The notes below the pieces were generated by a model. The model was not told where the DNA came from, did no database searches, and saw only the letters and a program-made list of their open reading frames with translations. A stretch of DNA of 34,871 nucleotides from Oscillatoriales cyanobacterium PMM_0008 (GTDB taxonomy: Bacteria > Cyanobacteriota > Cyanobacteriia > Cyanobacteriales > Aerosakkonemataceae). A program made the translations under genes and the position numbers. This document shows, in pieces, positions 2,085-22,960 of the stretch. Every line of letters begins with the position of its first letter. Within the stretch, counting starts at the first letter, position 1. Location of the stretch: positions 1 through 34,871 of the forward strand of contig CASBRD010000219.1 in NCBI GenBank assembly GCA_949128025.1. Direction: 5' to 3'.

Positions 2085-5072
2085 ATGACCCAAACAGTTT
2101 CGCGATCGCAAATTCAAACCTTTCTGGCGGAAATAGAGCCATTTAACCGACTAAACGCCAGAAGTCTAGAGGGTTTTGCCGCTCAATGCCAGTTATTGCG
2201 CTATCGCATCGGGCAAACAATCCTGCAAAGGGAAGTGATGCCCACACAGGTAGCGATCGTCTATACAGGACAGGCGCGACTGTTGGGCTACGACCAGCGC
2301 ACCCAAAGCCCCGCCAGCTTGCAAGTGGTCGGGCCAGGGGAAGCCCTGGGCTGGGTAGGATTGGTAAGGGGAGTCGCCTGCGAAACAGCGATCGCATCCA
2401 GCGAAGTCATCTGCATCACACTCCCAGCAGCAGAGTTCTTATCCTACCTCGATAAAGAACCAATTCTCAATGAAGCCTTCCGAGAGCGTTCTAGCCGCAT
2501 CGAACTATTTGAACTATTAAGCCTAGAATTGCAGCGCCGAGCATTAGCAAGCGTAAATCTCAAAGAACTAACCTTCCAAGTTTGGCAAGACACCGAAGTC
2601 CTGAACTTACCAAACGGTCAAGTAACCCTTCCCGAATTAGACCGGAATAGGGTTTGGCTAGTCAGCAGCGGCTTCATCGGCGCATTCTCCACCGGCAGCA
2701 GATTTCCGGCCAGTGAATCAGGCCCTTGGGTGCCCGTCAAAGGCAAACATGGTGCTAGGTTGTTGGGAGTGCGACTTCCGGTTGAGCCGTCGCCAGTCAT
2801 AGATGTGACGCCACCCGTACAGCAGATGGAGAGGGATGCGCCAACAACAGATTTTGAAGATGTTCCTCTAGCACCTCCCATCCAGCCAGCACCCCCAGAA
2901 GCCGTAGCTACACACCAGAAATTCCCCTATTTTCGGGGTCGCGGCAAAATAGAAGCCCCGCTAGCTTGCTTCAAAATGCTGGGAAAACAGATGGGCGTAC
3001 CCTTCCGCAAAGATGTCATTCGCAAAGTGTTGGATAACCAGCTCAAAGCCAGAGGAAGCATTACACTCCTAACCTGCGGTGGCGTAGCCGAGATCATGGG
3101 CATCAGCGCCCAACTGGTGGAAGTACAAGCTCAGGCAATACCCAGATTAAAAGCACCAGCAATGGTTCAATGGCAAGATAGCTTCGCCATTATTTACAGC
3201 ATCAGCGAAAAAGAACTGGTGATAGCGACGCCAGAAGAGGGAATTCGCCGCCGACATCCACGGGAGTTTGCCGAAACTTGGGGAAATGAAGGGCCGGTAC
3301 TGCTGCTGCAACAGCGTGCTGAAGAACAGAGAGAAAAATTCGGCCTCGGCTGGTTTTTGCCCGCCATATCCAAATATCGCAAAACCTTAATAGAAGTTTT
3401 TATCGCTTCGTTCTTAGTGCAGCTGTTTGCCTTGGCAAACCCACTAGCTACCCAGGTGATTATCGACCAAGTAATCAAGGATCGCAGCGCAACCATCCTA
3501 CATAGCGTGGGGCTGCTGTTGCTGGTAGTGGCAGTGTTTGAGGCGCTGCTGACTTACGTGCGGACAACTTTATTTGTCGATACCACCAACAGGATTGACA
3601 TCACCCTGGGTGCGGAGGTAATCGACCACCTGGTACGACTGCCGCTCAACTATTTCGACCATCGTCGGGTAGGGGAACTGGCAGGTCGGGTGAACGAACT
3701 GGAAAATATTCGTCAGTTTCTCACCGGCACAGCTTTGACGGTTGTACTTGATGCCTTTTTCTCGATATTTTATATCGCCTTCATGCTGGTTTATAGCGTG
3801 CCGCTGACGATCGTAGCTTTGTCAACCATCCCGCTATTTGCCATTCTGACGTTAATTGTCTCCCCGATCGTACAGCGTCAGTTACGCACCAAAGCCGAAC
3901 GCTACGCCGACGCCCAATCCTATTTAGTGGAAGTTCTTTCCGGGATTCAAACGGTCAAAGCCCAAAATATCGAGCTAAAATCGCGTTGGCAGTGGCAAGA
4001 ACGCTATGCCCGCTATGTCGCGGCAGGGTTTAAGACGGTGCTGACGTTTAGCACCGCTAGCGCTCTCAGCGGCTTTTTTAATAAGTTGTCCGGTCTGCTG
4101 CTTTTGTGGGTGGGAGCTTATATGGTGATAGCCAACCCACCTCAGCTAACTTTGGGGCAGCTGATTGCGTTCCGCATTATTGCAGGTTATGTCACTAGCC
4201 CTCTGCTGCGCTTGGTGCAGTTGTGGCAAAACTTCCAAGAAACGGCTCTGTCTATCGAACGGCTCAGCGACGTTCTGGATGCTAAACCAGAGGCAGACGA
4301 AAACAATCGCAACAATATCACTATGCCTTTAATTGAAGGGGCTGTGAAGTTTGAAGATGTTTCGTTCCGGTTTAATACCAGCGGACCGCTGCAACTGGTA
4401 AATGTCAATGTAGAATTTCCTGCCGGTACGTTTGTTGGGATTGTCGGTCAGAGCGGTTCTGGTAAGAGTACGCTGATGAAATTGCTACAGCGGCTTTACG
4501 AGCCTAACGCCGGACGGATTCAAGTTGATGATTACGATATCGGCAAAGTAGAACTTTATTCTCTGCGCCGTCAAGTTGGGATGGTGCTACAGGATACGCT
4601 GCTATTTAATGGCAGCGTCCGGGACAATATCGCCCTGACCAATCCTGAAGCTGGCGATGAGGAAATTATTGAGGCAGCCAAGGTGGCGGTAGCTCACGAT
4701 TTTATCATGAGCTTATCTAACGGCTACAACACTATAGTGGGAGAGCGCGGCTCCAGTTTATCGGGGGGACAAAGACAGCGGATTGCGATCGCCCGCACCG
4801 TTCTGCAAAACCCCAGACTGCTGATTTTAGACGAAGCTACCAGCGCCCTAGACTACCATTCCGAGCGCCAAGTCTGCGATAACCTCGCGATCGCATTTCA
4901 GGGTCGCACTGTCTTTTTCATCACCCACCGACTCAGCACCGTTAGAAGTGCCGATGTCATACTGATGATGGATCAAGGTTCTGTAGTCGAGCAAGGTACT
5001 CACAAGGAATTAATGGCGCTTAAAGGACGTTACTATTGCCTCTACCAGCAACAAGAGTCCGAAATTTCTTAA
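2085..5072 (+). CDS. ABC exporter with cNMP-binding-like and inactive C39-like N-terminal domains
   Basis: The 995-residue protein is a type I secretion ATPase/permease of the inner membrane. In order: a cyclic-nucleotide-binding-like fold at about 10-130; a linker rich in Pro at 235-275; a C39 peptidase-like domain at about 285-410; six probable membrane helices at about 432-720; and an ATPase domain. The ATPase is intact: Walker A GQSGSGKST (788-796), signature LSGGQ (892-896), Walker B LLILDE (912-917) and switch His 948. The C39 region lacks its catalytic residues: where active peptidases read DCGxACLxM this protein has EAPLACFKM (290-298), and the usual catalytic His position is in QDSFAII. 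It therefore resembles the C39-like domain of HlyB, which binds substrates without cleaving them. A GGTGG sequence precedes the ATG. The likely partner is the HlyD protein just downstream; the substrate is unknown. Confidence 0.92.
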   Translation: MTQTVSRSQIQTFLAEIEPFNRLNARSLEGFAAQCQLLRYRIGQTILQREVMPTQVAIVYTGQARLLGYDQRTQSPASLQVVGPGEALGWVGLVRGVACETAIASSEVICITLPAAEFLSYLDKEPILNEAFRERSSRIELFELLSLELQRRALASVNLKELTFQVWQDTEVLNLPNGQVTLPELDRNRVWLVSSGFIGAFSTGSRFPASESGPWVPVKGKHGARLLGVRLPVEPSPVIDVTPPVQQMERDAPTTDFEDVPLAPPIQPAPPEAVATHQKFPYFRGRGKIEAPLACFKMLGKQMGVPFRKDVIRKVLDNQLKARGSITLLTCGGVAEIMGISAQLVEVQAQAIPRLKAPAMVQWQDSFAIIYSISEKELVIATPEEGIRRRHPREFAETWGNEGPVLLLQQRAEEQREKFGLGWFLPAISKYRKTLIEVFIASFLVQLFALANPLATQVIIDQVIKDRSATILHSVGLLLLVVAVFEALLTYVRTTLFVDTTNRIDITLGAEVIDHLVRLPLNYFDHRRVGELAGRVNELENIRQFLTGTALTVVLDAFFSIFYIAFMLVYSVPLTIVALSTIPLFAILTLIVSPIVQRQLRTKAERYADAQSYLVEVLSGIQTVKAQNIELKSRWQWQERYARYVAAGFKTVLTFSTASALSGFFNKLSGLLLLWVGAYMVIANPPQLTLGQLIAFRIIAGYVTSPLLRLVQLWQNFQETALSIERLSDVLDAKPEADENNRNNITMPLIEGAVKFEDVSFRFNTSGPLQLVNVNVEFPAGTFVGIVGQSGSGKSTLMKLLQRLYEPNAGRIQVDDYDIGKVELYSLRRQVGMVLQDTLLFNGSVRDNIALTNPEAGDEEIIEAAKVAVAHDFIMSLSNGYNTIVGERGSSLSGGQRQRIAIARTVLQNPRLLILDEATSALDYHSERQVCDNLAIAFQGRTVFFITHRLSTVRSADVILMMDQGSVVEQGTHKELMALKGRYYCLYQQQESEIS

Positions 5073-5173: not shown

Positions 5174-7189
5174 ATGACCAACAAACAAATAGTCGATCGT
5201 TCAAATGGCAACGGCAACGGCAACGGCAAACACAACGGTATAGCTCAAGTAAAAGATTTCAATACCGTTTGGGTTCCTCCCGAACCAGTTTCCCCTCCTC
5301 CGCCTCCTTTTGAGCCAGACAACCAACCCATCCTATTAGAGCGACCTTCTTGGTGGTCGCACGCCTTTGTTTGGTTAATTCTCAGCGTAACTGGTTCCGC
5401 TCTACTTTGGGCAGCATTTGCCCCGATCGAGCAATCAATCCCAGCTATGGGTAAATTGGAAGCGGAAGGTGCTGCCAAAGAAGTGAAAGCACCCAACGGC
5501 GGCGTGGTACGCGAGATTTTTGTCAAAGATGGAGAGCGGGTGACAAAAGGTCAGCTTTTGATTACGCTTGACCCCACAGCACCCCAAGCAGATTTGGACT
5601 CGCTCTTCAAACAGCGCGAAACGCTTCTGCGGGAAAATCAATTTTACAACGCGCAAGCTAATGGCGCAAGCACAGGAGGCAGTCCCGAATTACAAGCGCT
5701 AACCCAGTCTAGATCTGCCCTAATCGCAGAAAATCAATACTACAAGGCTCAGCTGAATGGGGCAAAAGTAGCAGGCGGCAGCGGGGGCGAATTCTTTGCC
5801 AACCAAGAGGGACTTTTAGCCGCCAGCCGCGCCGAATTGCGGTCTCGCGTGCAAGCAGCTCAGTTGCAAGTTCAAGAGTTACAAAAGCAATTTGACCAGG
5901 TGCAGGTGCAATTAGCGGCTGGCTCGGCACAATTGCCATTGGCCGGTACGCAATTAGCGACGACCAAAGATCGATTAGAACTGGCTAAGGTGCAGTTTGA
6001 AACGGCCCAGGCGCAATTACCCAGAGCAGTCCAGCAGTTTGAAACGTCCAAGGCGCAATTACCCAGGGCGATCAAGCAGTTTGAAACGGCCCAGGCGCAA
6101 TTACCCAGAGCGATCGAGCGATCGCAAACGTCTAAAGCTCTGCTCGCTACAGATCAAGCCCTTCTAAATCAGATCCAATCCGCAGTGGCGGAAGGAGCGA
6201 TATCTAAGCTGCAATCTCAACGGCAGGAGCAACAAGTTTTGACCCGCAAAAATGATATTGCCGAAAGAGAATCGGAAATTTTGACGCGCCAAAATGAGGT
6301 TACGCAAAGTGAATCGGAAATCTTAAGACGCCGCCAGGAAATCACGGCAAGCGAAACGGAAATCTTGAGACGCCGCCAGGAACTCGCAGCCAGCCGATCT
6401 GAAATATCAAACCGCCAAGGTGAAGTTGCCAACCGCGAAGCCGAACTTTTGAAAACTCAAGCTGAAATCGATCGCCTGAAGGGAGACCAACAACGCATCA
6501 CTGTGTCCATCGATCGGGCGAAGCAACAGTTGAAAAATACTATTGATTTATCTGCCAAAGATATCTTCACGAAAATTGCCGATAACCACCAAAAGATTGC
6601 CGAAATTGATAGCCAGCTAGCTCGATTGAGATTGGAAAATAAGAAAAAGCTAGACGAAATTGAGAGCCAAATCCAAAAGGCAAAACAGGTTCTTCAGTAC
6701 CAAGAACTCCGAGCGCCAGTTGATGGGATGGTGTTTAATCTAAAACCAAATTCGCCGGGATATGTTGTCAGACAAATTGACGCGGAACCAGTGCTGTCAA
6801 TTGTGCCTACCGATAAACTGGTGGCAAAAATATATCTTACAAACCGGGATATCGGTCAGATTGTGGATAAATTGAAAAAGGAAAAAGAGTTGAAGGTCGA
6901 GGTAAATGTGGAATCGTTCCCATCCACCGAATTTGGCACCGTCACCGGCAAATTGACTTCAGTTGGTTCTGATGTTTTGCCTCCAGATCAACAGGAACAA
7001 CGTCCTTATTACGCTTTTCCTGCCACAATAGAACTGGAAAGTCAATCTTTGAAAGTGGGTGAAAGGAAAATTCCGCTCCAGTCCGGTATGGCGATCAATG
7101 CCAGTATAAAAGTGCGTAATCGGACAGTTCTGAGTATCTTTACAGAGTTGTTCCAAAAACAAGTTGATGACCTTAAGACCGTCAGGTAA
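5174..7189 (+). CDS. HlyD-family type I secretion membrane fusion protein
   Basis: The 671-residue protein bridges the ABC exporter and an outer-membrane channel across the periplasm. A cytoplasmic N-terminus with an NGNGNGNG tract (from hexamers) and a Pro-rich stretch precedes one membrane helix at about 63-82. A lipoyl/barrel-sandwich half follows (VKAPNGGVVREIFVKDGERV, about 104-123), then a very long coiled coil, the second lipoyl half (QELRAPVDGMVF) and a beta-barrel domain to the end. It is longer than E. coli HlyD (478 residues); the extra length is coiled coil built from 14-residue repeats, both in QFETAQAQLPRA units and in SEILRRRQEITASE units. It lies 101 bases after the exporter and surely works with it. 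No TolC gene is in the window. Confidence 0.93.
   Translation: MTNKQIVDRSNGNGNGNGKHNGIAQVKDFNTVWVPPEPVSPPPPPFEPDNQPILLERPSWWSHAFVWLILSVTGSALLWAAFAPIEQSIPAMGKLEAEGAAKEVKAPNGGVVREIFVKDGERVTKGQLLITLDPTAPQADLDSLFKQRETLLRENQFYNAQANGASTGGSPELQALTQSRSALIAENQYYKAQLNGAKVAGGSGGEFFANQEGLLAASRAELRSRVQAAQLQVQELQKQFDQVQVQLAAGSAQLPLAGTQLATTKDRLELAKVQFETAQAQLPRAVQQFETSKAQLPRAIKQFETAQAQLPRAIERSQTSKALLATDQALLNQIQSAVAEGAISKLQSQRQEQQVLTRKNDIAERESEILTRQNEVTQSESEILRRRQEITASETEILRRRQELAASRSEISNRQGEVANREAELLKTQAEIDRLKGDQQRITVSIDRAKQQLKNTIDLSAKDIFTKIADNHQKIAEIDSQLARLRLENKKKLDEIESQIQKAKQVLQYQELRAPVDGMVFNLKPNSPGYVVRQIDAEPVLSIVPTDKLVAKIYLTNRDIGQIVDKLKKEKELKVEVNVESFPSTEFGTVTGKLTSVGSDVLPPDQQEQRPYYAFPATIELESQSLKVGERKIPLQSGMAINASIKVRNRTVLSIFTELFQKQVDDLKTVR
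5993..6118 (+). repeat. Three tandem 42-bp repeats inside the HlyD gene
   Basis: Three nearly identical 42-base units begin at 5993, 6035 and 6077, each encoding QFETAQAQLPRA plus two residues. Fourteen residues equal two heptads, so copy-number change keeps both frame and coiled-coil register. Confidence 0.9.
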
Positions 7190-7498: not shown

Positions 7499-9685
7499 GT
7501 GCCAGCAACTCTCTACAAGTATTTTAAAGTCTGTATGCTATTCCTAATCTGGGCACTTCCAGTAGCATACTGCTTCATCGCTTTTCTACCAATGCCGAAT
7601 GGAATAAGAATAGGTTTAGACCCATCTTGGCAATATGCCCTCAGTCGTGCCTCAGCAGATCAACTGATTTTTGGACGAGACATTGTGTTCACGTATGGCC
7701 CGATCGGATACCTAACTTCTGGGGCTGTATTAGATAAAAACTTTTTTTCTATAGTATCTTTTCGCTTTTTAGTATACTTTGTATTATTTGGATTGGTTTG
7801 GATAAAGTTCTTAAAGCTAAGGACAAAATTGACAAAGGCATCTCTCATTCTCAGCTTATTATTTCCTTTTATTTTTAGTAAATTATCATCAAATACGACA
7901 AATGAAATTTTATTTATATTTATAATTATTTTGTTATTTTATGATGGTATTTTTATAAGATATTGGTCTTTGGGGCTGGCAGTATTTGCCGGTCTTTGCT
8001 TGAGTTTGAAGCTGAATCTAGGAGTTACTATACTTGGTTCGCTCCTTTTATTACTGTCGGAAAAGCTTTATTCATCCCTGAAACATAAAAAAAATATAAG
8101 CTTGATAGTATTCGCCATTATAGATTCATTATTGGTAACCAACTCCGTGCTATTTATAACCTTAGATAAATCATATATAAACAGTTTTATGAAGCTGATA
8201 ATTTGTATTATTTTATCAGGAATATTTGGCTTATCAACATGGTGGGTTACCCGGCAAGTAATTAGCCGTAAAATTTTACTCACCCTGGGGGAAGTTATTA
8301 ATAGCAATCAAGTTTTAACCAGAATATTAAAGCCAAGAATTACAGGATGGTGCGTATTTTATTTTGTCTACTGTTTTTGCTTTATATTAATAATTTTTTA
8401 TTTCAATCATCCCCTTATAGACTATTTGAGAGGCGCTCTAGAAATTTCTTCTGGTTACTCCAGTGCAATGAGTTTGGTGGGCTCAAAATTGGAGCTAATA
8501 GTTGGAATTTCTGAAATGTTTTTAATCTTTGCACTTTTAATTTTAGGTAGCCGGGAATATTCCGTAGGTCTTTCCCTATCTATAGCGTTTATATTATGGA
8601 TGACTTTTAAACACGGGTTTGTTCGTCAGGATGGGCACATTATTGGGTTTATAAGTTCTACCCCTCTCCTAGTTTCTATATGTATTACTAAAGCTAAAAC
8701 ACTTCCTACAATCAAATTTTCCTTTTTAATCCATATCTACCTGTTGCTCATTATGCTAATATATGGATTTACTTCTAACCCATTTGGAAATCAGTCATTT
8801 CCCCAAGGTACAAACAGACTTGCAGACTTTGCTCCCGAACGGGTAGCTGCTAGGGTATCAGGCTTGATTAACTTGAACAAGCTGCAAGACGAAGTGAATG
8901 CCAAAAGTAAGGCCAAACTCTCTAAAATCAAACTACCAGACAGTGTAATAGAGCTAGTAAAATCTAAAGAAATAGATATTATACCTTGGGAAATTTCCTT
9001 GGTAGAAGCTAACAAACTTAACTGGAAGCCAAGACCAATATTTCAGTCATACTCTGCTTATACAGCGTTTCTTGACCACTTAAACATGAAAAGCTTATCA
9101 AAAAAACCAAGAGAATACATTTTTTATAATTTTGAGAGCATAGATGGCAGATATCCTTTTTTTGACGAACCAGAAACTTTCTTTTATCTCTTTTGCAATT
9201 ACAGAATAGCCGATAAATTTTCGGAATTTATCAATATGCCTGGGCTCTCAAAATTGATGCTATTGGCCAAACTTAATTCAAGTCAGTGTTCGACAGGTAC
9301 TTTAGCAAAGAAAACATCCCTGCCCTGGAATACTTCTCAGTCAATAGAAGTTGGTGATGGACAGGTGGTTCGTGCAGATGTTGATTTTAAATATTCTTTT
9401 TTTGGTAAAATATATAAAACTCTTTTTAGAGTACCGCCTATAAACATAGTTGTAATTGATGTGAATGGTGTGAAAAGTGAATATAGAATTGTGCCAGACA
9501 ACGCCAAAAACGGTATTATAATCAGCCACTTGCCGAAAAATCCTGATGATGCTCTATCCTTTTTTAAAGGACAGTTTCCTGTTCCAGTCAAGTCATTTAG
9601 TTTTTCGATAAGTAACTCTTTATTGTACAAAGGTGATATAGATGTAAGTTTAACTTCATATCCTGTTGCAGAAATTTTAAGATAA
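7499..9685 (+). CDS. Large polytopic membrane protein of unknown function (possibly GT-C-like)
   Basis: The 728-residue protein has about ten hydrophobic segments in residues 1-430 and a soluble C-terminal part of about 290 residues. A short loop after the first helix reads GLDPSWQYALSRA followed by GRDIVFTYGPIGYL; an acidic residue in the first extracytoplasmic loop is typical of GT-C lipid-linked sugar transferases, so a transferase role is possible but unproven. The start used is GTG 7499; ATG at 7535 (residue 13) is an alternative. The gene is clearly richer in A and T than its neighbours, as often seen in variable polysaccharide loci acquired by transfer. Downstream rhamnose genes support a role in surface glycan assembly. 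I do not recognise the family. Confidence 0.75.
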   Translation: MPATLYKYFKVCMLFLIWALPVAYCFIAFLPMPNGIRIGLDPSWQYALSRASADQLIFGRDIVFTYGPIGYLTSGAVLDKNFFSIVSFRFLVYFVLFGLVWIKFLKLRTKLTKASLILSLLFPFIFSKLSSNTTNEILFIFIIILLFYDGIFIRYWSLGLAVFAGLCLSLKLNLGVTILGSLLLLLSEKLYSSLKHKKNISLIVFAIIDSLLVTNSVLFITLDKSYINSFMKLIICIILSGIFGLSTWWVTRQVISRKILLTLGEVINSNQVLTRILKPRITGWCVFYFVYCFCFILIIFYFNHPLIDYLRGALEISSGYSSAMSLVGSKLELIVGISEMFLIFALLILGSREYSVGLSLSIAFILWMTFKHGFVRQDGHIIGFISSTPLLVSICITKAKTLPTIKFSFLIHIYLLLIMLIYGFTSNPFGNQSFPQGTNRLADFAPERVAARVSGLINLNKLQDEVNAKSKAKLSKIKLPDSVIELVKSKEIDIIPWEISLVEANKLNWKPRPIFQSYSAYTAFLDHLNMKSLSKKPREYIFYNFESIDGRYPFFDEPETFFYLFCNYRIADKFSEFINMPGLSKLMLLAKLNSSQCSTGTLAKKTSLPWNTSQSIEVGDGQVVRADVDFKYSFFGKIYKTLFRVPPINIVVIDVNGVKSEYRIVPDNAKNGIIISHLPKNPDDALSFFKGQFPVPVKSFSFSISNSLLYKGDIDVSLTSYPVAEILR

Positions 9686-17957: not shown

Positions 17958-19172
17958 CTATTCTATCACCTCTAACACCGTCTTGGGCAATAACTTATCC
18001 TTAAACCAGATAATTTTCGCTGGCGTATCGCTCACCTTTACCCCAGCTTTCTCCAAATTCAATCTTTCCGAAACAGCCAAGATCAAATTATCGCATTCAG
18101 CCTTTCGCGCTTGGGCGAATTTCTTTTGCAGATATTCAGGACGCCAGTAACCAACTATTTCTAATAAGTAGGTTCTTCCATCGGGATGCACCAGGCGAAA
18201 ATCGGGAATCATTACGCTACCGGGAATAGGAATAAGGTCAACTTCTCGCTCTAAAACCCAATCTGTTTTTAAGGAATCCCAGCGGTTAGCAAATGATGCT
18301 TCCAACATACTATCATAAGGCTTACCGGGTGGATAATGAGACACCAAACCGCAATCGGAATTAAGAGTGAATCTGCCAGTTTTTGATGCACCAGTATAGA
18401 AATCGCGAGTTTGCAAAGTGGCGCTGAGACTCCATTTGGTAACATGAAGCAAAGCTGGGAGCATTTTAGCGATCGCTAACCCATATCTCGTGCTAGGCTT
18501 AAACAAACTTGTCGGCCCATCAATAGTAATTGTAAAACCGTGGTCGGCATCACCCTCAATGTATGTCATCAATTGAAATAGTTTTAGATAGCGAAATAAC
18601 AACTTATACTCACCCGGAACATTGCGATGAGCATTCAGCGTCATCTGACTGGCGCGGTAAAAAACTCCTTGCACTTGCGATACATTGTAACGATGTAATA
18701 AATTTTCTGGTATGGGAGCATCAAACTGAGTTAAAATACGATTTTCTTGCAAATCCGCATACAAACCAGTCCGAATTTGTTCTGGCAGAACTTCTCGATT
18801 TAGTTCTTCACTGAGCTTGTCAGCTAAGCCGCTCAATGTTTTAGCAGTTGCGGGCAAACTAGGAATAGATCGGGCCGATAAAACAAACACGCGATCGCGC
18901 AATTCTTGGGGGTCTAAAGGACTAACAACCTCAAAAGTACAAAAACTGCTTTTGAGCAGATGAACTAATCCTCTAATTAGGCGATAATCAGGACTATCGC
19001 CTTCAAATTCTGACAACTTATTATCTAATTCTCCCTGAGTTTTACCGACTAATTCTTCAAAATAAGTAATCAAATCGATCGCCAACTCTAAATTGCGATC
19101 GTCAATCTTCAGGCGCTTCGGAATTATCGTCTCCCCATTTTGCCGGTGACTCAGCAACTCGCTTGGTAACAT
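17958..19172 (-). CDS. DUF790 (Bax1-like) nuclease
   Basis: The 404-residue protein starts MLPSELLSHRQNGETIIPKRL, the usual N-terminus of DUF790 (COG3372). This family includes archaeal Bax1, a nuclease partner of the XPB helicase in DNA repair. A PD-(D/E)XK-like core is visible near residues 320-365: IPDFRLVHPDGRTYLLEIVGYW, where the Asp of PDF and the Glu of LEIVG are probable metal ligands. The gene overlaps the 3' end of the XPB-like helicase gene by 71 bases in a different frame, so the two are translationally linked and probably form a complex. The frame continues upstream to 19241, but those 23 codons (MKILLLLLRNIQSKIQN) come from heptamer repeats inside the helicase gene and only mimic a signal peptide. 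Confidence 0.88.
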   Translation of the reverse strand: MLPSELLSHRQNGETIIPKRLKIDDRNLELAIDLITYFEELVGKTQGELDNKLSEFEGDSPDYRLIRGLVHLLKSSFCTFEVVSPLDPQELRDRVFVLSARSIPSLPATAKTLSGLADKLSEELNREVLPEQIRTGLYADLQENRILTQFDAPIPENLLHRYNVSQVQGVFYRASQMTLNAHRNVPGEYKLLFRYLKLFQLMTYIEGDADHGFTITIDGPTSLFKPSTRYGLAIAKMLPALLHVTKWSLSATLQTRDFYTGASKTGRFTLNSDCGLVSHYPPGKPYDSMLEASFANRWDSLKTDWVLEREVDLIPIPGSVMIPDFRLVHPDGRTYLLEIVGYWRPEYLQKKFAQARKAECDNLILAVSERLNLEKAGVKVSDTPAKIIWFKDKLLPKTVLEVIE

Positions 19173-20778
19173 TTGGATTTTGGATTTTGGATTTTGGATT
19201 TTGGATTGAATATTTCTCAGGAGTAGCAGGAGGATTTTCACCCCAAGATTCTGGCGACTCAGCAGCTAAATAACCACTTTGGTGATTTACCTCATAAATT
19301 GGTTTAGACGGCACAACCTTTAAATTGCCTTTCTTCTTCTTCTTCTTATCCTTTCCTATTTCTTGTGGTACAGGCGTCTCGCCTGTAACTCTGATTGGTT
19401 CGTTTTTCTTCTCAACTCCCCGCCGACGTTCAGAAGTACCCTCCTCACTCGTATTTTCCGCCACCACCTCATAAAGTACAGCGCGTTTATTCTCATCATT
19501 CCCCTTACGCAAAATCCGCCCCAGTCGCTGAATAAACTCGCGCTGGGAACCCGTACCGGATAAGATAATGGCAATACTGGCAGCCGGAACATCAACACCT
19601 TCATTTAAAACATGAGAAGCTACCAGACTTTTGTATTCCCCTTCCCGAAAGCGCGTTAAGATTTCGTGGCGTTCTTTTACCGGAGTTTGATGAGTAATTG
19701 CCGGGATTAAAAACTCCTGGGAAATCCGGTAAACAGTAGCATTGTCGGCTGTAAATATAAGAGTGCGTTCGGGATAATGTTCGGCAATCAAATTACCGAG
19801 AACCCGCAACTTGCCGTCAGTACCCAAAGCAATTTCCCTAGCTTCTCGGTGAGCTAGCATAGCACGGCGTCCGCCTGGAGATCTAGCACTCATTTGCACA
19901 AATCGCTGCCAACCTTCCAAACTGCCTAAACTAATCTTTTCTGATTTCAAAAAGTCATTGCGAATTTTGATAAGTTCGGTGTAGCGATCGCGCTCCAGTT
20001 GCGATAACTTCACTTTAATCGGGATAATCTCATGCTGCGCTAGCGCTAAACCAGCCAATTCCTCAGCCGTTTTGCGATAAACCACCGGGCCGATGAGATG
20101 ATTGAGATCGGTATGCTTGCCATCCGATCGGTCCGGCGTTGCAGATAATCCCAGACGATAAGGTGCGATCGCATATTCCGCGATCGCACGATAAAATTCT
20201 GTTGGCAAATGGTGACACTCATCAAAAATTAACAGCGCATAGCCATTTCCCAACGCCTCAGCATTAATTGCCGCACTATCGTAAGTAGCAACAAGAATCG
20301 GCGTCCTATCCCGCGAACCGCCACCCAGCAACCCCACCTCTACATCGGGAAAAGCCGCCACCAATTGAGCATACCACTGGTGCATCAAATCCAACGTTGG
20401 CACCACAATCAGCGTACTGCGAGGCGTTCCCTGCATCGCCAGTTGAGCCAAATAAGTCTTACCAGCAGCAGTGGGAAGCACCACCACCCCCCTCCTTCCT
20501 GCCAACTTCCAAGCCATCAACGCCTCACTCTGGTGCAGATAGGGTTCCATTTCCACACTAGGGATCAATTCCAGCGGCGCAAATGCCTTCGCCTCATCGA
20601 TAAAGTTAGTTCCTTCGGCTTGCAGTGCTTCCACCAGAGGGCGATAGTGGATAGCGGGGATGCGAAATTTCTCCACGCGATCGTCCCAAGTAGCGAATTC
20701 CACCCAGATTTTGCCCCTTGGGGGGGGATGCAAAATCAGAGTGCCCCTGTCAAAAGATAATGTGGGAGTACGAACCAT
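19102..20778 (-). CDS. XPB-like superfamily 2 DNA helicase
   Basis: The 558-residue protein is an ATP-dependent helicase of the XPB/Ssl2 type. A small N-terminal domain (1-75) like the XPB damage-recognition region precedes HQSEALMAW, motif I PTAAGKT (102-108), motif II DECHH (186-190), motif III SATPDR (212-217), and motif VI QRLGRILR (417-424). With the overlapping DUF790 nuclease it matches the archaeal XPB-Bax1 pair, implicated in nucleotide excision repair. The tail after about residue 445 is unusual: it contains GETPVPQ encoded by a palindromic repeat, a poly-Lys run, and two similar acidic units (AAESPESWGENPPATPE at 505-521 and VAESPAKWGDDNSEAPE at 541-557) separated by heptamer-encoded IQNPKSKIQNPN. 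The core is intact; the tail is probably dispensable. Confidence 0.93.
   Translation of the reverse strand: MVRTPTLSFDRGTLILHPPPRGKIWVEFATWDDRVEKFRIPAIHYRPLVEALQAEGTNFIDEAKAFAPLELIPSVEMEPYLHQSEALMAWKLAGRRGVVVLPTAAGKTYLAQLAMQGTPRSTLIVVPTLDLMHQWYAQLVAAFPDVEVGLLGGGSRDRTPILVATYDSAAINAEALGNGYALLIFDECHHLPTEFYRAIAEYAIAPYRLGLSATPDRSDGKHTDLNHLIGPVVYRKTAEELAGLALAQHEIIPIKVKLSQLERDRYTELIKIRNDFLKSEKISLGSLEGWQRFVQMSARSPGGRRAMLAHREAREIALGTDGKLRVLGNLIAEHYPERTLIFTADNATVYRISQEFLIPAITHQTPVKERHEILTRFREGEYKSLVASHVLNEGVDVPAASIAIILSGTGSQREFIQRLGRILRKGNDENKRAVLYEVVAENTSEEGTSERRRGVEKKNEPIRVTGETPVPQEIGKDKKKKKKGNLKVVPSKPIYEVNHQSGYLAAESPESWGENPPATPEKYSIQNPKSKIQNPNVTKRVAESPAKWGDDNSEAPED
19172..19206. repeat. Five tandem heptamers (TTTGGAT) in the helicase-nuclease overlap
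   Basis: Five perfect TTTGGAT units run from 19172 to 19206. Heptamer arrays of this kind (short tandemly repeated repetitive sequences) are typical of cyanobacteria. They encode NPKSKIQ in the helicase frame and lie exactly at the DUF790 start codon. Confidence 0.9.
19370..19386. repeat. Palindromic repeat coding GETPVPQ in the helicase tail
   Basis: ACAGGCG (19370-19376) and CGCCTGT (19380-19386) are inverted around TCT. This is a dispersed cyanobacterial repeat sequence and here it is read as protein in the helicase C-terminus. Confidence 0.6.
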
Positions 20779-20830
20779 TACTTCTTCATATTCTCGTTCA
20801 CCCCGATAATTTTAAGGCTAGCAACATAAG

Positions 20831-20888
20831 GCGGGACAGTTTGATAGGGGGACAAGAAAGACTGGTTCTTTTCTACGGTGTGTCCCGC
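20831..20888. repeat. Inverted repeat in the helicase/folK-pabB divergent gap
   Basis: GCGGGACA (20831-20838) and TGTCCCGC (20881-20888) face each other in the 157-base gap between the divergent genes at 20778 and 20936. It could be a small repeat element or an operator; nothing else is visible there. Confidence 0.4.
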
Positions 20889-20935
20889 TTTAAATTGGTA
20901 GCCAACTTACAAAAAATCTCAATCTTTGAAAAGCA

Positions 20936-22960
20936 GTGTTTCTTGCTGTAATTGCTTTTGGTTCTAACTATAAAGCTGAGTCCAACCTGGTCAAAGGGTT
21001 AAAAGCTTTGGATCGACAGGTACGGATATTGGCTGTATCTCCAGTTTACGAAAACCCAGCCATTGGCAAAACGACTAGCCCACCTTATCTCAATGGTGCC
21101 TGCTTAGTAGAGACAAATTTGCCAGCAATAGATCTGTACCAGCAGGTGTTGCGCTCTATAGAGGATGGCTTAGGTAGAATCCGAGGAGAAGAAGGCAAAG
21201 CCAAATGTAGCATAGACCTAGATCTTGTACTTTACGACGCATTGGTTCTGTCAACCCCTAACCTGCAATTACCAGCGCCGGATATACTACGGTATGCCTA
21301 TGTAGCTTCGCCCTTGGGGTTTCTGGTGCCTGATTGGATTCATCCGCTCACAAAAGAGACGATGGCTCAAATTGGAAATCGATTTTCCCCACAGAAGGCG
21401 ACCTTTTACGAGCGAGTAGAGGTGAATGCCGCGATCGCAGTCGAGTTATTTAGTCCAGCGCTATCCAGCATGAAACCCATACAACCTTGGCATTGGCGAA
21501 AGCTTCCTCTTGCTAATCGTAGTGGATCGCAAGTCTTCGAGGCGCTATTTCTTAATCCCAGAGATGAAACCAGCGACAATCTCGCAACAGTACAAAGTCA
21601 TTCCCGTCAGCGTATTGCCACCCTCCTAGAAAGCCCAGTTACACCAAACAGCACCCATCTGGCTCGATATTCTATTTGTGCGGGTTCTCCTCGCTATATT
21701 GAGGGTCAACCGCAGCTATGGACACCCCCTGTAGGAGACATTCTTCCCTTCCTGCGCCGCCTGCTCAACTCTCACGATCGGGATGAAGATGGGAATATGA
21801 AAGTGGAGTCGATCGGGCCTGCTGAATTTCCCTTTACAGGTGGCTGGCTAGGATGGCTGGGATATGACTTGGCGTGGGAGATTGAGCGACTTCCCCAACT
21901 CAAAGCCGATCCGCTTCCTTTCCCAACTGCTTACTGGTACGAACCAGAATCCTTTGCAGTTGTGGATAGTCAAGAGCAAATTCTATGGTTAGCAGCTACT
22001 GACTTCGCTCAACTCGATTCTATGCAAAGTCAGCTAGATCGAGAGACAGGAACGCAAAATTCACCGTCAGCCTGCAAAACTAATCCCGTCATTCCCATTT
22101 TCCAAATGTCTCAGGAGGATTATGAAGCGGCGGTACGACAAGCTCAGAAATATATTCAAGCAGGCGATATCTTTCAAGCTAATTTGTCCTTGCGGTTTGA
22201 AGCGCATACCCCAAGTGATAGCTGGTCAATTTATCGAGCTTTGCAGCAGATCAATCCTTCCCCCTTCGCCAGTTATTGGCAGACTCCTTGGGGGGCAATT
22301 ATTAGCTGTTCCCCAGAAAGGTTAGTTCAATTATCAGGGAGGCAAGTTGAGACTCGACCGATCGCAGGAACGCGATCGCGTGGCCCTACCTCCACTGCCG
22401 ATCAGCAGTTAGCCGAAGAATTAATCGCCAACATCAAAGAAAGAGCCGAACACATCATGTTAGTTGACCTAGAGCGCAATGACATCGGCAGAGTATGCGA
22501 ATGGGGGTCTGTAAAAGTCAATGAACTCCTCACCATCGAACGCTACAGCCACGTCATGCACCTGGTCAGCAACATCATTGGTACACTACGTCCGAATTAT
22601 GACGCAGTAGACTTGATTCGATCTGTGTTTCCTGGGGGGACAATTACTGGTTGTCCAAAAGTTCGCTGCATGGAAATTATTGAAGAACTCGAACCCGTAA
22701 AGCGCAACTTATTCTACGGTTCCTGCGGTTATCTAGATTGGCGGGGAAACCTCGACTTAAATATCCTGATTCGCACTTTACTGTATACTGACGCAAGCGA
22801 CCCTACACTAGGGGCAACTGTTTGGGGACAAGTCGGTGCTGGCATTGTTGCAGACAGCGACCCGGAAAAAGAATGGTATGAGTCTCTCAATAAAGCACAA
22901 GCTCAAGTCAACGCCCTAAACCTAGCTAAAATATTTCAGCAAAATACCGCCAGTCAGTGA
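20936..22960 (+). CDS. pabB: FolK-like (HPPK) domain fused to PabB/TrpE-type chorismate enzyme
   Basis: The 674-residue protein starts at GTG 20936, the only start after an in-frame TGA at 20927. Residues 1-148 look like 6-hydroxymethyl-dihydropterin pyrophosphokinase (FolK): AFGSN, PVYENPAIG, YLNGACLVET, GLGRIR and the metal-binding IDLDLVLYD with D94 and D96. It lacks the Arg before that motif (C91 where E. coli has R92) and the PH motif (PAPD instead), so its activity is doubtful. Residues 180-665 are anthranilate/aminodeoxychorismate synthase component I: LLESP, SCSPERLV, ETRPIAGTRSRG (473-483), HIMLVDLERNDIGR, FPGGTITGCPKVRCMEII. PITGCPK-type sequence is PabB-like, but A477 stands where E. 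coli PabB has its catalytic Lys (PIKGT). Both halves point to folate synthesis, yet TrpE activity cannot be excluded. Confidence 0.88.
   Translation: MFLAVIAFGSNYKAESNLVKGLKALDRQVRILAVSPVYENPAIGKTTSPPYLNGACLVETNLPAIDLYQQVLRSIEDGLGRIRGEEGKAKCSIDLDLVLYDALVLSTPNLQLPAPDILRYAYVASPLGFLVPDWIHPLTKETMAQIGNRFSPQKATFYERVEVNAAIAVELFSPALSSMKPIQPWHWRKLPLANRSGSQVFEALFLNPRDETSDNLATVQSHSRQRIATLLESPVTPNSTHLARYSICAGSPRYIEGQPQLWTPPVGDILPFLRRLLNSHDRDEDGNMKVESIGPAEFPFTGGWLGWLGYDLAWEIERLPQLKADPLPFPTAYWYEPESFAVVDSQEQILWLAATDFAQLDSMQSQLDRETGTQNSPSACKTNPVIPIFQMSQEDYEAAVRQAQKYIQAGDIFQANLSLRFEAHTPSDSWSIYRALQQINPSPFASYWQTPWGAIISCSPERLVQLSGRQVETRPIAGTRSRGPTSTADQQLAEELIANIKERAEHIMLVDLERNDIGRVCEWGSVKVNELLTIERYSHVMHLVSNIIGTLRPNYDAVDLIRSVFPGGTITGCPKVRCMEIIEELEPVKRNLFYGSCGYLDWRGNLDLNILIRTLLYTDASDPTLGATVWGQVGAGIVADSDPEKEWYESLNKAQAQVNALNLAKIFQQNTASQ

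Follow-up and report, generated by a model that had tools for sequence, protein, structure and literature searches.

A cyanobacterial gene that joins an HPPK domain with altered active-site residues to a predicted PabB of the PIAGT type

Here, we present an analysis of a gene of Oscillatoriales cyanobacterium PMM_0008 that links the pterin and p-aminobenzoate (pABA) branches of folate synthesis within a single open reading frame. The gene lies on contig CASBRD010000219.1 (assembly GCA_949128025.1), of which the 34,871 nucleotides analyzed are referred to as the window, and encodes an HPPK domain, a linker and a complete PabB. We refer to the N-terminal domain and its close homologues as HPPK2. 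HPPK2 resembles canonical FolKs in fold and metal-binding residues; however, every copy found lacks side chains that grip the phosphates of ATP in HPPK. We consider it reasonably probable, based on sequence comparisons, that the protein is a working PabB of the Ala type that carries HPPK2 as a non-catalytic ligand module.

Results

Architecture of the fusion gene

A preliminary description, made from the DNA letters alone, had proposed that one frame joins an HPPK-like domain to a chorismate enzyme. Profile searches bear this out, with E values of 1.9e-21 for the Pfam family HPPK and 1.4e-89 for Chorismate_bind; the N-terminal part also scores above the cut-off of the NCBIfam folK model TIGR01498 (81.1 bits, cut-off 54.1). 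The start of the gene, GTGTTTCTTGCT, is identical in two other loci (L093 and L096), and a GTG stands at the equivalent place in three more (L097, L199 and L125). A chance or read-through frame was ruled out, as the profile matches of both halves lie far beyond chance and fused loci occur elsewhere. The parts of the gene are as follows (positions in the window).

20936..22960, plus strand: HPPK2-PabB fusion gene, 674 amino acids (aa), GTG start, stop included
20948..21322, plus strand: HPPK domain (HPPK2), residues 5-129; Pfam PF01288, E 1.9e-21, 77.1 bits, cut-off 25.7
21206..21208, plus strand: C91 codon; the residue aligns with R92 of E. coli HPPK (ungapped), and all nine HPPK2 have Cys here
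21215..21223, plus strand: D94-L95-D96, metal Asp pair kept, by alignment
21275..21277, plus strand: A114 codon; the residue aligns with H115 of HPPK and is Ala in 9/9
21293..21295, plus strand: Y120 codon; the residue aligns with R121 of HPPK and is Tyr in 9/9
21386..21469, plus strand: linker, residues 151-178, the region of remnants in some unfused relatives
21470..22957, plus strand: PabB (PRK05940 / PabB-clade2), residues 179-674; unfused relatives begin close to M179
21602..21991, plus strand: Anth_synt_I_N domain, residues 223-352, Pfam
22112..22894, plus strand: Chorismate_bind domain, residues 393-653, Pfam, E 1.4e-89
22364..22366, plus strand: codon of A477 in PIAGT (residues 475-479), motif read from sequence
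22640..22660, plus strand: TITGCPK motif, residues 569-575, motif read from sequence

HPPK2 keeps the HPPK fold and changes the same positions in all copies

We compared nine HPPK2 with canonical cyanobacterial FolKs (61 distinct sequences from 62 loci), using E. coli numbering and, for the region of W89 and R92, both an ungapped and a gapped (MAFFT) alignment. D94 and D96 of the window protein, named in the preliminary description as kept metal ligands, do align with the metal Asp pair D95/D97, and this pair is retained in all nine HPPK2, as are N10, Y53, N55, E77, R82 and R84. In contrast, HPPK2 has no equivalents of W89, R92, H115 and R121, which are invariant in the 61 canonical FolKs (ungapped alignment). 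H115 is replaced by Ala in 9/9 copies, so that the PH motif, rightly described as gone, reads PA (A114) in the window protein. R121 is Tyr in 9/9 (Y120 in the window), and W89 is absent from all nine, its place being taken in the window by K88 (ungapped) or G87 (gapped). The R92 column holds Cys in every copy in the ungapped alignment and Lys in five, Gln in three and Arg in one in the gapped alignment; at this place, the window protein has C91 or K90 and thus, as previously noted, no Arg under either alignment. T42, which is Thr in 60 canonical FolKs and Ser in one, is Asn in all nine HPPK2 (N40), and F123 is Tyr in six and His in three. The changes at R121, W89 and T42 go beyond the preliminary description.

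In an HPPK ternary complex, as given in the part of PMC2994781 drawn on here, Lys80, Arg88, Arg98, His121 and Arg127 contact the beta and gamma phosphates, and Ser43, Val46, Asn61, Trp95, Phe59 and Phe129 contact the pterin. By numbering offset, these residues map to E. coli position 74, R82, R92, H115 and R121 and to T42, L45, N55, W89, Y53 and F123, respectively. Based on this mapping, three of the four comparable phosphate contacts (R92, H115 and R121) are lost in HPPK2; position 74 was left out, being Leu in 57/61 canonical FolKs too. Five of the six pterin contacts are kept or swapped for a similar side chain: the places of the pterin pocket are filled by N40, I/V43, Y51, N53 and Y/H122, and only W89 is lost. 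Because residues that grip the ATP phosphates are missing, HPPK2 has probably lost pyrophosphokinase activity.

A predicted model of residues 1-160 has a mean predicted local distance difference test (pLDDT) score of 84.6, and its ten best fold matches in the PDB are all HPPKs, with template modeling (TM) scores of 0.84-0.89 normalized to the query. Certainty is lowest in residues 81-90 (loop 3, mean 57) and 151-160 (mean 46).

HPPK2 is an old paralog under purifying selection

A canonical folK is present in all nine genomes with HPPK2, i.e., in the window genome (G000) and eight others, and scores 129-139 bits vs 72-81 for HPPK2. HPPK2 as a recent copy of the host's own folK was ruled out by an identity of 37% and a separate clade. 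In the HPPK tree, HPPK2 forms its own clade (98/98) on a long stem; long branches meet there, so that any deep placement is tentative. HPPK2 evolves under purifying selection: in 15 pairs of the six intact fusions, the ratio of nonsynonymous to synonymous substitution rates (dN/dS, Nei-Gojobori) is 0.10-0.33 vs 0.06-0.26 for PabB, with dS at about 1.4-2.5 and near saturation in the five pairs that include G600.

The chorismate half is very probably PabB

The preliminary description left open whether the chorismate half is an unusual PabB or a TrpE. The best-matching NCBI model is PRK05940 (794.3 bits, cut-off 568, match from residue 181). The PabB-clade2 model TIGR01824 scores 426.5 bits, above its cut-off of 408.55, and trpE_most (TIGR00564) scores 386.8, below its cut-off of 517.7. 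The NCBIfam names thus conflict for the same protein, PRK05940 (an equivalog model) standing for anthranilate synthase component I and TIGR01824 for aminodeoxychorismate (ADC) synthase component I. Among solved structures, the best match, 7pi1, is deposited as aminodeoxychorismate synthase component 1; the second, 7qu9, as "Anthranilate synthase component I family protein"; and the third, 4grh, as aminodeoxychorismate synthase.

TITGCPK at residues 569-575 and A477 within PIAGT are both present as described, and the catalytic Lys of PIKGT was not found in the window PabB. A view of Ala as an altered catalytic residue peculiar to this protein does not hold, since PIAGT is standard in 91/91 PabB rows of this type (window included) and also stands in the alignment of 7pi1 (and in 7qu9); thus, Ala477 is the normal state of a subfamily rather than a defect. 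FPGGTITGCP is found in 88 of the 91 rows and FPGGTISGCP in three. The Lys marks only one PabB type and, therefore, its absence does not exclude PabB. PabBs of the Ala type take a non-covalent route, and a crystal structure of a PIAGT-type PabB from Stenotrophomonas has reportedly been published; a search of the open-licence literature found no paper on this route and no mention of the PIAGT motif, while PIKGT is mentioned in one paper. Two Rhizonema genomes (L210:226-2364 and L200:214-2379) have a PabA-PabB fusion with PIKGT beside HPPK2-PabB with PIAGT and, thus, two types of ADC synthase.

The window genome (5.83 Mb, 98.75% complete) holds three chorismate enzymes by family search, the fusion included. 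The others are a 535-aa TrpE-like protein on contig C269 with PIAGT and TVSGAPK, just under the trpE_most cut-off (515.6/517.7), and an isochorismate synthase on C134 (331.9 bits, cut-off 224.75); no other PabB was found by this search in a genome of that completeness. A single TrpG/PabA amidotransferase scores above the cut-off (236 bits) and is encoded elsewhere in the genome. Because TrpE and isochorismate synthase are present separately, the window protein is most likely this organism's PabB.

That the chorismate half is an anthranilate synthase instead is very unlikely. PIAGT is also the TrpE state, as seen in the genome's own TrpE, and both the name of the highest-scoring model and that of 7qu9 point in this direction; however, the outcome at the PabB-clade2 and trpE_most cut-offs, the deposits of 7pi1 and 4grh, and the separate TrpE and isochorismate synthase, which leave the genome with no other PabB, argue for PabB. 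We conclude that the chorismate half is very probably PabB; of the two options originally proposed, PabB stands, while "unusual" does not.

Most probably one polypeptide rather than two

The window, both Rhizonema, Spirirestis, Hassallia and G439 retain an ATG at the place of M179, and unfused relatives start nearby, as would be expected if two genes merely shared a frame and PabB were translated from M179. We regard this as highly improbable: the frame is continuous in six intact copies, and neither G600 nor the Acaryochloridaceae copy has an ATG at the junction. The HPPK2/PabB junction of G600 lacks a Met, with ATG143 (within HPPK2) and TTG182 as the nearest start codons, and a search of G600 turned up no further PabB gene of this type (818 bits vs no more than 268 for the remaining chorismate enzymes); therefore, translation as a fusion is needed in this genome unless one of these two codons is used. 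An additional PabB-only product that starts at M179 may be made where the ATG is kept.

The fusion is scattered, and HPPK2 has been lost with different ends

HPPK2 homologues with >70% identity were found in 3/386 genomes of the phylum (G000, G433 and G439). A search of the order (388 genomes, E <=1e-150) gave, among the matches listed, fusions in G000, G600 and G439 (a 687-aa frame), and a contig scan with exact peptide words, which yields a lower bound, gave at least six loci, in two Rhizonema, Spirirestis, Desmonostoc, Hassallia and Acaryochloridaceae. Eight fused loci are known from scattered cyanobacteria: the window, L092, L093, L094, L096, L097, L088/L199 (G439) and L125 (G600). The frames of L094 and L097 are broken in their contigs; these are metagenome assemblies (coverage of L097, 2.8), and the breaks are possibly not real. 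Among 24 plasmid and nine phage records that matched, none had an HPPK2 match of at least 60% identity.

A hidden Markov model (HMM) of HPPK2 was run over the upstream DNA (as much as 1.1 kb) of 99 pabB loci, which are near hits to the window protein rather than a random sample. Eight complete copies were found, together with remnants in G012 (model positions 141-177, E 5.9e-8), G470 (121-175, E 3.5e-6) and G560 (155-174, E 0.014, but reading YHRMDVNTAIAPELF); three shuffles per locus, used as a control, gave no HPPK2 match up to E 0.1. PabBs L107 (G470) and L104 (G012) are without the HPPK2 fold and carry the C-terminal piece of HPPK2 in frame as an N-terminal extension, with no Met at the place of M179. 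A short remnant in the congener G002 was missed by the HMM and is visible in a DNA alignment and weakly in tblastn (E 0.11); it retains the last HPPK2-linker codons, AITVELFSPALSS. For a second congener, G001, the label of remnant has the DNA alignment as its sole basis. Relative to the window, the stretches absent from the two congeners differ in their ends.

20930..21456, no strand: stretch of about 527 bp absent in G001, which still has the DNA upstream; end positions accurate to within a few bases; DNA alignment
20801..21428, no strand: stretch absent in G002, about 628 bp, other ends than in G001; DNA alignment

In a tree of 36 PabBs, a clade of 15 rows (90/80) holds all eight fused rows and four of the five rows with remnants or deletions, together with L099, L100 and L103, which have no trace of HPPK2. 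The fifth remnant row (L107, from G470) lies just outside this clade, beside L109, and all fall within a clade of 26 rows (100/99). In a quick tree of 91 rows, a 15-row set (83) includes L107 and L109 and lacks the two frame-broken rows. The window PabB is sister to that of G002 (98/97), and the losses in G001 and G002 are therefore independent. Counting changes between trace and no trace gives three, which alone cannot separate gain from loss; loss is preferred because of the remnants and the deletions with different ends. A gain in the window only was ruled out, as sister species have HPPK2-linker remnants or deletions of different ends. On the simplest reading, the fusion would have been gained once and HPPK2 lost repeatedly. 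Sister species without the domain keep PabB, so that PabB does not need HPPK2; judging by these genomes, HPPK2 is dispensable for PabB.

The pabB rows of the window's family (f1, four rows) and of f33 (three rows) are not grouped by family, and forcing such groupings, which were named after the tree was seen, was rejected in approximately unbiased (AU) tests (p-AU 0.019 and 0.0025). The fused gene has probably spread by horizontal transfer; this is the simplest reading, proof of which would take a species tree.

Desmonostoc muscorum FACHB-395 provides the mirror case (L095:4992-5700 = G433:C23). There, HPPK2 is an intact separate frame of 199 aa, and only about 60 residues of the PabB half remain, in shifted frames that include a stop. 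A search of this genome with the PabB half found no gene of this type besides the remnant; its other matches are TrpE-like and other chorismate enzymes with identities of 39-50% or less, one of them a PabA-PabB with PIKGT (L204). The Desmonostoc HPPK2 nests with Rhizonema (94/91, HPPK tree), and its branch has a dN of about 0.05 and a dS of about 0.28 (150 codons, derived from pairwise values), with no sign of relaxation. The Desmonostoc case is thus a hint at a possible function of HPPK2 apart from PabB.

Neighboring genes

The window has 33 frames of at least 100 aa, and no folate family was found among the 20 neighboring frames scanned. Divergent from the fusion gene, an overlapping pair on the minus strand at 17958-20778 encodes an XPB-like helicase (XPB_DRD) and a DUF790 protein. 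A 728-aa frame at 7499-9685 has no Pfam match at E 1e-4; it comes after an HlyD protein (5174-7189) and, at 2085-5072, an ABC exporter that carries C39 and cNMP-binding domains.

Discussion

We suggest that the fusion gene yields a single polypeptide, the C-terminal part of which would be ADC synthase component I (PabB) of the PIAGT type, paired with the TrpG/PabA amidotransferase encoded elsewhere. The N-terminal HPPK2 would be an old HPPK paralog in which the fold and most of the pterin pocket are conserved, as is the Asp pair that binds Mg; it would no longer pyrophosphorylate pterin, the canonical FolK performing the kinase step, and would act on PabB as a module that is either structural or binds a ligand (pterin and/or nucleotide). 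One clade of cyanobacterial pabB genes may have acquired the fusion in a single event, and the fused gene may then have crossed families, with HPPK2 being deleted repeatedly. The confidence that we express in the PabB identity, kinase loss, pterin binding, regulation and the reading as a whole is our judgement. The preliminary description was right in direction in calling the HPPK half altered, as all nine copies lack the loop Trp and three side chains that contact phosphate (ungapped alignment), with the fold and most of the pterin pocket kept and a separate folK present; the binding or regulatory role that it suggested is the more tentative part. That HPPK2 binds pterin is possible but somewhat doubtful, and a regulatory effect on PabB is less likely still.

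A more specific version is that HPPK2 is an allosteric pseudoenzyme that senses pterin, or pterin and nucleotide, and adjusts PabB upon binding of 6-hydroxymethyl-dihydropterin or its pyrophosphate; we speculate along these lines while considering it rather unlikely. If true, the pABA branch would be matched to the pterin branch within one chain, and the Desmonostoc HPPK2 would work in trans or serve some other function. S. aureus HPPK needs nucleotide for good pterin binding, its affinity without nucleotide being about 100 µM by surface plasmon resonance in the part of PMC3261883 drawn on here, and a pterin-only sensor is therefore not the natural reading.

Besides this weak binding, several observations weigh against the favored reading. 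One HPPK2, from Acaryochloridaceae, has Arg at the R92 column in the gapped alignment; moreover, R82, R84 and both Asp are kept throughout, so that weak activity is possible. The 27 positions listed as lining the pocket do not differ significantly in invariance from the rest of HPPK2 (17/27 invariant vs 53/121 elsewhere, odds ratio 2.2, p 0.09), so that a more conserved pocket is suggestive only. The full-length model (mean pLDDT 55) is too poor to define a domain interface or to search folds. For the history of the gene, the bootstrap of the 36-row PabB tree had not settled, and the AU groups were chosen post hoc. Finally, HPPK2 shows a higher dN/dS than PabB in 15/15 pairs, and the persistence of PabB after HPPK2 loss in sister species means that the domain may be a passenger.

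As a passenger, HPPK2 would be an inactive paralog that stays attached because its cost is small and that is on its way to gradual loss. The higher dN/dS of HPPK2 relative to PabB and the absence of the domain, with different ends, from G001, G002, G012, G470 and G560 speak for this; however, its dN/dS is still low, none of the nine copies has a stop inside the HPPK2 part, all nine share the same substitutions at key positions instead of showing scattered ones, and the Desmonostoc HPPK2 stays open despite the decay of PabB. We therefore regard a mere passenger as unlikely. Less likely again, HPPK2 could be an active enzyme, either an HPPK that works through other residues or a pyrophosphokinase for another substrate, with Cys91 and Tyr120 marking a changed site. 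The Mg-binding Asp pair, R82, R84, N55, Y53 and E77 are kept in 9/9 copies, C91 and Y120 are just as invariant, and FolK duplicates of open activity are known (PMC1971073, in the part drawn on here). Yet three of the four mapped phosphate contacts and W89 are lost, and every genome with HPPK2 has a canonical FolK. The R92A variant of E. coli HPPK is said to have a large catalytic defect. Weighing these points, we favor a non-catalytic HPPK2 attached to a working PabB.

HPPK2 resembles HPPK/FolK (PF01288, TIGR01498) in fold, profile match, Asp pair and most pterin-pocket residues and differs by the four missing side chains, its own clade and the attached PabB. The PabB half is like PabBs of the PIAGT type (TIGR01824, 7pi1) over the whole chain, including PIAGT and T-I-T-G-x-P-K, the difference being HPPK2 at the N terminus. 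Known fusions likewise join folate enzymes, some with an HPPK half; the published sections used here describe FolK-FolP (PMC2994781), FolB-FolK-FolP (PMC4224340) and, in PMC1971073, FolK duplication with FolB, PabAa-PabAb and PabAa-PabAb-PabAc. According to the same sections, the active sites of FolK-FolP are like those of the separate enzymes (PMC2994781), whereas HPPK2-PabB joins an altered HPPK site to the pABA branch. FolK1/FolK2 paralogs are alike in having a second folK-like gene beside the canonical one and differ in that one copy is said to lie mostly in a pantothenate operon; the sections of PMC1971073 used here describe no FolK-PabB fusion. No FolK-PabB (HPPK-PabB) fusion was found in the open-licence literature, the only kind searched.

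For annotation, these findings call for caution in that the NCBI folK model names an HPPK activity that the protein may not have and PRK05940 an anthranilate synthase activity that it probably does not have. Fusions of folate genes are common; HPPK-PabB joins the pterin and pABA branches through a domain that is without phosphate-gripping residues in every copy found. Moreover, natural controls exist, namely sister species from which HPPK2 has been removed and one species in which PabB has decayed and HPPK2 is kept, making cross-branch control directly testable.

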